Source: an uncultured Geobacter sp.
Lineage (GTDB): Bacteria; Desulfobacterota; Desulfuromonadia; Geobacterales; Geobacteraceae
Direction: 5' to 3'
Assembly: GCA_903915655.1 (NCBI GenBank)
Contig: CAIWTU010000051.1
Span: 1 to 64,000, forward strand
DNA length: 64,000 nt
Shown: one piece after another, positions 20,481 through 49,552 of the stretch
Layout: every line of letters begins with the position of its first letter
Numbering within the stretch: position 1 is the stretch's first letter
Notes under the pieces: model-generated
The model's database searches: none
Told to the model about the DNA's origin: nothing
What the model saw: only the letters and a program-made list of their open reading frames with translations
Program-made: the position numbers and the translations under genes

Positions 20481-20621
20481 CTGCCGAGGCTCTTGCAAAA
20501 TGATTCTCCTCCCCGAAGGCCTCTATCGGGGATCCAGTCTTTTCAGTCAGTTAAAATCTAGATTCCGGCTAGAAGCCTGCCGAAATGACAATTATTCCGA
20601 CTTTTGCAAGAGGCTCTGCCG
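20481..20621. mobile_element. Small non-coding element with terminal inverted repeats, copy 1
   Basis: The element spans 20487-20615. Its ends, AGGCTCTTGCAAAA and TTTTGCAAGAGGCT, are inverted repeats with one mismatch, and the six bases CTGCCG stand on both sides (20481-20486 and 20616-20621) as a target duplication. Internal hairpins are visible, for example around 20523-20541 and near the end. The second copy at 37226-37355 is in reverse orientation and differs at six of 129 aligned positions by hand count. It carries no protein-coding gene. A stretch that reads YRGSSLFSQLKS in one frame occurs in both copies only because the DNA is duplicated. It is best described as a MITE-like or REP-derived element. 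Confidence 0.85.
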
Positions 20622-37163: not shown

Positions 37164-37228
37164 CTTAGTAAGTTAAAAGTTGTTTTCTGCGATTTCCAGA
37201 CAGAAAATAACTTCGTAAACTTACTGAG
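37164..37228. repeat. Long imperfect palindrome next to the element
   Basis: CTTAGTAAGTT at 37164-37174 matches, in reverse complement, AACTTACTGAG at 37218-37228 with one mismatch. Inside this, AAGTTGTTTTCTG and CAGAAAATAACTT form a second inverted pair around 37178-37213. The right arm overlaps the target duplication of the element copy, so insertion probably occurred at the palindrome. Confidence 0.6.
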
Positions 37229-37361
37229 CCTCTTGCTAAAGTCGGAATAATTGTCATTCCGGCAGGCTTCTAGCCGGAATCCAGATTTTAACTGACTGAA
37301 AAGACTGGATCCCCGATAGAGGCATTCGGGGATGACAATCATTTTGCAAGAGCCTCTTACT
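37220..37361. mobile_element. Small non-coding element with terminal inverted repeats, copy 2
   Basis: This is the reverse-oriented twin of the element at 20487-20615, spanning 37226-37355 and flanked by CTTACT on both sides (37220-37225 and 37356-37361). Its termini match those of copy 1 (AGCCTCTTGC at one end, GCAAGAGCCT at the other). Having different target duplications at the two sites shows both copies arrived by transposition-like insertion. There is no transposase in the copy, so it must have depended on one elsewhere. Confidence 0.88.
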
Positions 37362-49167: not shown

Positions 49168-49552
49168 CAGGTAGAACGGCATCGTTTTCCTCTAGGCGCC
49201 TCTTCCGTTTCGTTGGAATAAATTCGGACTGGAGCTTGAGGGATATCTGTTATTGAGTTTCCATCCGGAAACGTTGCAGCATATAGACGAAGCGTGGTAC
49301 CATTCTTCACAAATATTCACCGAAAAGGCACAGCATGGGCAACCGTGTGTCGCAATGCTACCATCCCTATGGGATAGAGGGGCTGTCGAAGTGGGTCATT
49401 TGAAGGCAATACCGTACAACGCCAAAAGGGGTGGGGGGGAGAGTTCAAACCCGGACGATCGGAAGGGGCGTCCCTGCAATAGGCCCACGCCGTTTTTTTG
49501 CTCAGTAATTAAGGCCTGGGGAGTTGGACTGAGTAGATCCAGGTCAGTCGTT
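49168..49552. other. Intergenic stretch with an uncertain 5' extension of the thermonuclease frame
   Basis: About 385 bases. The thermonuclease frame stays open back to 49253, but its translation there is rich in Gly, Pro and charged residues and has no signal or domain, so I treat it as non-coding. Poly-G and poly-T stretches near 49430 and 49490 are visible. No RNA gene was recognised. Confidence 0.4.

Follow-up and report, generated by a model that had tools for sequence, protein, structure and literature searches.

A MITE family with a shell probably moved by an IS1182-type transposase and a seemingly separable dimer of CGTC-like REP palindromes, also found in IS1595-type shells

Described MITEs closest to the present locus include an IS1182-derived one with 4-bp direct repeats (DR 4) and an IS1595-derived one with DR 8 (PMC3852290). 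Another relevant group are the CGTC REPs (Di Nocera 2013), which, according to that account (PMC3733652), include the Neisseria dRS3 and, in Halothiobacillus, the CGTC-1 dimers sitting within a 41-bp palindrome, and are reported there without a dedicated transposase. Here we describe an element family with two copies in the window, that is, the whole 64,000-nucleotide stretch of DNA from an uncultured Geobacter sp. that was analysed. Each copy is a MITE, in which an outer shell, probably moved by an IS1182-type transposase, encloses a dimer of CGTC-like REP palindromes; this dimer would be separable from the shell and has close relatives in IS1595-type shells.

A sequence-only reading of the window had pointed to two near-identical copies of a mobile element. 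We confirmed that both copies are 131 bp long and align without gaps, with six differing positions, the same number as counted by hand; the bounds then given (20487-20615 and 37226-37355) fell on real elements and have been refined to those in the table. The claim of inverted-repeat ends with one mismatch was borne out as well: the family terminus (TIR1, GAGNCTCTTGCAAAA) is 15 bp long, its inverted ends differ by one internal mismatch (GAGGCTCTTGCAAAA vs. GAGCCTCTTGCAAAA), and copy 2 has one more (GAGCCTCTTGCTAAA). The flanking duplications do differ between the copies, as had been noted, but not with the 6-bp length assigned to them (CTGCCG and CTTACT). As the element is bounded by GAG...CTC, those repeats include its terminal G or C, and the actual duplications are TGCC (4 bp) and TTACT (5 bp). 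Copy 1 has a universal stress protein gene on one side and a response-regulator/histidine-kinase gene on the other, and copy 2 is located some 115 bp past the stop codon of a minus-strand PALP-family gene. Neither copy has an ORF of its own, the listed ORFs that overlap them running into flanking DNA. Elsewhere in the window there is a c-di-GMP-I riboswitch (49317-49390, plus strand; RF01051, 40.6 bits).

Table. Positions (in the window) of the two MITE copies and their parts
Feature	Position	Strand	Basis
MITE copy 1 (shell 1, core A), 131 bp	20486..20616	+	96.2% to family consensus; direct reading
Copy 1 left target-site duplication TGCC	20482..20485	.	direct reading; duplication counts
Copy 1 left TIR1 GAGGCTCTTGCAAAA	20486..20500	+	direct reading; TIR pattern search
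Copy 1 REP unit 1 (TGTCAT-stem/loop-ATCCAG; tag partly mutated)	20505..20537	+	family consensus position; pair counts, 18 members
Copy 1 REP unit 2, inverted partner (CTGGAT-stem/loop-ATGACA)	20558..20590	-	family consensus position; pair counts
Copy 1 right TIR1 GAGCCTCTTGCAAAA (as read on - strand)	20602..20616	-	direct reading; TIR pattern search
Copy 1 right target-site duplication TGCC	20617..20620	.	direct reading; duplication counts
MITE copy 2 (shell 1, core A), 131 bp	37226..37356	-	99.2% to family consensus
Copy 2 target-site duplication TTACT	37221..37225	.	direct reading
Copy 2 TIR1 GAGCCTCTTGCTAAA, 1 mismatch to TIR pattern	37226..37240	+	direct reading; TIR pattern search
Copy 2 REP unit 2 (GTCATTCCGGCAGGCTTCTAGCCGGAATCCA)	37252..37284	+	pattern match C51:37253-37283
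Copy 2 REP unit 1 (GTCATCCCCGAATGCCTCTATCGGGGATCCA)	37305..37337	-	pattern match C51:37306-37336
Copy 2 TIR1 GAGGCTCTTGCAAAA on - strand	37342..37356	-	direct reading; TIR pattern search
Copy 2 target-site duplication TTACT	37357..37361	.	direct reading

The two copies are members of a real MITE family. A BLAST search of the window's own genome gave 43 matches to the element, and since a few of these are palindromic self-matches, the element occupies about 40 full or partial places; the TIR, allowing at most one mismatch, matched at 69 positions as compared with 2 for a reversed-pattern control. These two results show that the element and its ends are not due to chance. Among the 27 complete copies in this genome, nine have an exact 4-bp duplication and one a 5-bp duplication (shuffle expectation ∼0.6 and ∼0.04, respectively). 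In other genomes, an exact 4-bp duplication abuts TIR1 in 73 of 114 copies and a 5-bp duplication in 6 (∼2 and ∼0.4 expected from shuffling). Of the 148 copies combining shell 1 with core A, 81 show a duplication of 4 bp, 7 one of 5 bp and 6 one of 3 bp; of the TIR-like site pairs lacking a recognised core, 1 in 40 showed one. The composition of the target site is WWWY-NNNN-RWWW. The sequence-only view of a MITE-like mobile family moved by an enzyme in trans is well supported by some 40 places, varied short duplications, precise empty sites in related genomes (see below) and the lack of an own ORF. The contrary scenario, with two copies only and a shared older duplication, fails. Overall, the family has TIRs, target duplications of fixed length that vary from site to site, precise insertion, and a short, multicopy and noncoding body.

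The family is present across several phyla. A collection scan for TIR1 followed by GTCATNCC returned 116 stretches, with MAGs labelled Nitrospirae, Nitrospiria, Deltaproteobacteria, Thermodesulfobacteriota and Proteobacteria among the matches listed. A contig classed as viral (IMGVR_UViG_3300018033_000059), a possible vehicle between hosts, contains a TIR1 element flanked by duplicated AGGA and equipped with REP-like units (L483:3501-3648). There is also a possible third group of TIR1 elements, with an interior starting with CTCCAAAAATGTCA or similar (G000 contigs C45, C11 and C39; loci L039, L082, L081 and L075), both ends being seen in L039 only.

To look for empty sites, the flanks of an element were fused around a single duplication copy, and the resulting sequence was compared with the fetched loci. 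The best of them, L172, matched the L152 element site (AACA) over 100 of 100 bp, and L119 fits the same empty site over 99 bp. An unoccupied counterpart of L163 (CTAT) was found in L205 (∼93% match), those of L131 (ATTAA) in L171 and L112, and that of L181 (CAAA) in L120; the empty-site matches for L109 and L205:5075 were weaker and imprecise. None of the empty sites recovered belongs to the window's own genome. At the copy 1 locus of a same-genus genome (G001) both neighbour genes are kept and the element is absent, the intergenic DNA being too diverged for a base-precise junction, and no base-precise empty site was obtained for either window copy. A flanking repeat, of which L172:2017-2116 is the empty form, exists in two copies whose AACA site is taken by different element subtypes (L119:4821-4951 and L152:1181-1310), which means either that the site was used twice or that the elements were exchanged.

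In the interior of the element, two CGTC-like REP palindromes form an inverted dimer (core A), a feature missed by the sequence-only reading. One half consists of TGTCAT-stem-loop-stem-ATCCAG, and the second half is inverted. In 18 diverse members, 92% of the stem cells are paired, as compared with 31-47% with the partners slid; nine pairs are altered on both sides (compensatory changes), and one stem position is C-G in 12 members and G-C in 6. The z-scores of folding were -3.4 (copy 1, as DNA) and -5.2 (copy 2, as RNA). The tag and stem (TGTC followed by ATCCCCGA or ATTCCGGC) conform to those of CGTC REPs, but the loops of ∼9 nt do not conform to the 4-5 nt given in PMC3733652 (where exceptions to this length are also noted), hence the name CGTC-like. 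When the REP pattern is matched exactly against the window's own genome, nearly all hits fall within TIR1 elements or their remnants; REP units without an intact shell do exist (e.g. L451 and L452). Element sizes cluster at 130/131, 150/151 and 170/171 bp (L105, L141, L148, L175 and others) due to palindromic segments of ∼20 bp added inside the first REP unit (the 150- and 170-bp forms come from other genomes), with the middle of such forms sometimes inverted (TATCGGGGATA vs. TATCCCCGATA); this growth looks like a hairpin-templated process.

A closely similar dimer occurs inside different ends, TIR2 (CCTGATTAGYACTRATCTNCCGC, shell 2), in genomes G043, G031, G035 and G042. Close relatives from shell 2 in the same orientation share 87-91% core identity with the own-genome consensus over 86-87 bp (lower values in the cross-shell comparison include reverse-aligned and more distant copies), as opposed to 40-45% for their 5' shell, which does not exceed 48% in the comparison. 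The duplication accompanying shell 2 with core A is of 8 bp in 9 out of 15 copies, and of 4 bp in none. An autonomous partner with matching TIRs was found for shell 2, unlike shell 1: a complete 1057-bp IS1595 element (L411:447-1503), bounded by TIR2, flanked by an 8-bp duplication and encoding an IS1595 transposase (PF12762, E 2.8e-38). Its position is next to an IS1182 transposase frame, whose 3' end it slightly overlaps. A different palindrome dimer, core B (TTCGACAAGCTCA...), replaces core A inside shell 1 in at least four elements of the window's own genome, and two of these show 4-bp duplications; a single copy of core B inside TIR2 (L228) lies at a contig edge, with the duplication unreadable. 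The core B string was not found in open papers, and a search limited to open papers and a few queries turned up no account of a single core shared by two unrelated shells.

The suggestion that shell 1 is moved by an enzyme encoded elsewhere in the same genome was not supported, as no transposase with matching ends was found in the assembly. The two DDE_Tnp_1 proteins, the only ones found there, are not associated with TIR1 ends, and there was no match to the PF13751 model or to an IS1182 protein query; with the assembly in 171 contigs, this does not prove the absence of an IS1182/PF13751 transposase. Neither this genome nor any other locus examined yielded an autonomous element whose ends are exactly GAGNCTCTTGCAAAA. 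A candidate with exact TIR1 on both sides did not come up in the parent searches with DDE_Tnp_1 and PF13751, with the IS1182 protein query over 277 genomes of the class, or for any transposase element in viral contigs queried by TIR pattern and by protein; plasmids gave no similar element at the sensitivity used, and among the 20 titles listed of 28 open papers containing one of two TIR1 core strings, none appeared pertinent. On the other hand, IS1182-type elements (proteins scoring with NF033551, carrying PF13751 or matching an IS1182 protein, sampled from MAGs carrying the MITE and from genomes of the same class) have similar ends. Those identified by PF13751/NF033551 end in GAGNCTGTCGAAAAA, GAGNCTGTAGAAAAA or GAGNCTGTCGGACTT, often with 4-bp duplications, and the ends in the sample include GAGACTGTCGAAAAA, GAGCCTGTCGGACTT, CGGGCTGTTGCCCAAA and GAGGCTGTAGAAAAA, several elements showing exact 4-bp duplications, often CTAG. 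TIR1 matches the GAGNCTGTAGAAAAA-type ends in 11-12 of 15 positions and is not identical to them, and the 4-bp duplication agrees in length with that of an IS1182-derived MITE. Because no autonomous element with exact TIR1 was found, the link to IS1182 rests on similar ends and duplication length; these, together with the published IS1182-derived MITE, make it likely that shell 1 is driven by an IS1182-type transposase.

The mobilising enzyme might instead belong to another family with similar ends, such as the IS5 group. Ends resembling CTGTTGCAAA are known from several DDE families, which counts in favour of such a source, as does the finding, in a MAG that bears the MITE (L399), of an IS5_4-type element that ends in CAGGCTGTTGAAAAA and is flanked by duplicated CTAG. 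We nevertheless regard another family as rather unlikely, since GAG-initial ends together with 4-bp duplications are seen in IS1182-scoring elements, and PF13701 (IS1380) gave no match above the cut-off in any of 12 genomes.

With regard to the core, the simplest alternative is an ordinary MITE, i.e. a deleted insertion sequence whose hairpin-forming interior has no independent meaning. Every MITE hallmark is indeed present, and hairpin folding is frequent in bacterial MITEs (background in PMC3733652), but much the same dimer lies inside the unrelated TIR2 with its other duplication length. The compensatory changes in the stems, the agreement of the units with CGTC REPs, as published, in tag and stem arrangement, and their shell-free occurrence also argue against it, and we disfavour it as improbable. 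We give even less credence to the idea that the core, as a REPIN, is mobilised by a RAYT (Y1, HUH) transposase and that the TIRs are merely a preferred landing site. In its favour, REPINs take the form of inverted REP dimers (PMC3116915), and the window's own genome, like 10 out of 10 other genomes searched, contains Y1_Tnp genes; however, both the 4-bp duplication and the empty site are located beyond the TIRs, showing that the whole element inserts. Moreover, a simple scan of 12 Y1_Tnp loci revealed no CGTC-like REP beside the gene, i.e. no linked RAYT gene flanked by the same REP, in agreement with PMC3733652, and an unsystematic look recognised no empty TIR1 shell. The RAYT-like Y1_Tnp genes observed include those on G000 contigs C89, C158 and C83 (L224, L235 and L245), one of them with an internal stop; the simple scan showed no CGTC-like REPs close to these genes. 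Given such transposases in these genomes, some independent movement of the REPs may still occur.

Overall, we consider it probable that the family combines a MITE shell moved by an IS1182-type transposase with a separable CGTC-like REP dimer that is shared with IS1595 shells. Each copy would be a non-autonomous DDE-type transposon, with TIR1 cut and inserted in trans through a staggered 4-bp (in a minority 5-bp) cut at AT-rich WWWY-NNNN-RWWW sites. The inverted REP dimer would be a passenger separable from this shell, a near-same dimer riding IS1595-type shells (TIR2, 8-bp duplication) in other genomes. A comparison of cores and shells suggests that the core has moved between them, possibly by recombination or template switching between hairpins, or by the REP's own mobility. 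For the broader proposition, that REP-like dimers exchange as separable passengers between IS1182-like TIR1 and IS1595-like TIR2 shells and so spread within genomes and across phyla by riding in unrelated MITEs, we see the chances as evenly balanced. The presence of CGTC-like dimers in two unrelated shells that differ in duplication length, with empty sites known for shell 1, makes this a testable model of REP spread, and a testable answer to the lack of a dedicated transposase for CGTC REPs reported in PMC3733652. If true, it would give supposedly orphan CGTC-like REPs a means of dispersal both inside a genome and from phylum to phylum. The same finding suggests a modular make-up for at least some MITE interiors, so that MITE families defined solely by their interior sequence may mix elements moved by different enzymes.

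Among known systems, the IS1182-derived ISMac2-related MITE of Methanosarcina acetivorans (PMC3852290) is alike in being a multicopy, noncoding, DDE-type element (160 bp) with 4-bp repeats. Its IR is of 26 bp as compared with 15 bp for TIR1 (a comparison of lengths, not sequences), and the interior here, unlike that element, is a REP-like dimer common to other shells. Shell 2, which occurs outside the window in other genomes, resembles the IS1595-derived ISHwa6-related MITE of Haloquadratum (8-bp direct repeats, TIRs of ∼25 bp; PMC3852290) and differs from it in carrying core A. CGTC REPs, as covered by the available part of PMC3733652, share the TGTC/CGTC tag, the AT-initial stem of 8-9 bp, the inverted heterodimers and the CCA tail (present in the copies of the window's own genome); apart from the loop length, the difference from the elements described there is that the present dimers lie inside transposon TIRs with target duplications. 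A precedent for a REP inside a MITE is QMITE2 of Coxiella burnetii (PMC5896051), which has TIRs and direct repeats of 7-11 bp and whose truncated copies resemble bare REPs, but its REP is of the GTAG type and is known in one shell. Finally, REPINs (PMC3116915) likewise have an inverted REP dimer as their core; they are attributed to RAYTs, whereas the elements described here are enclosed by DDE-type TIRs and target duplications.
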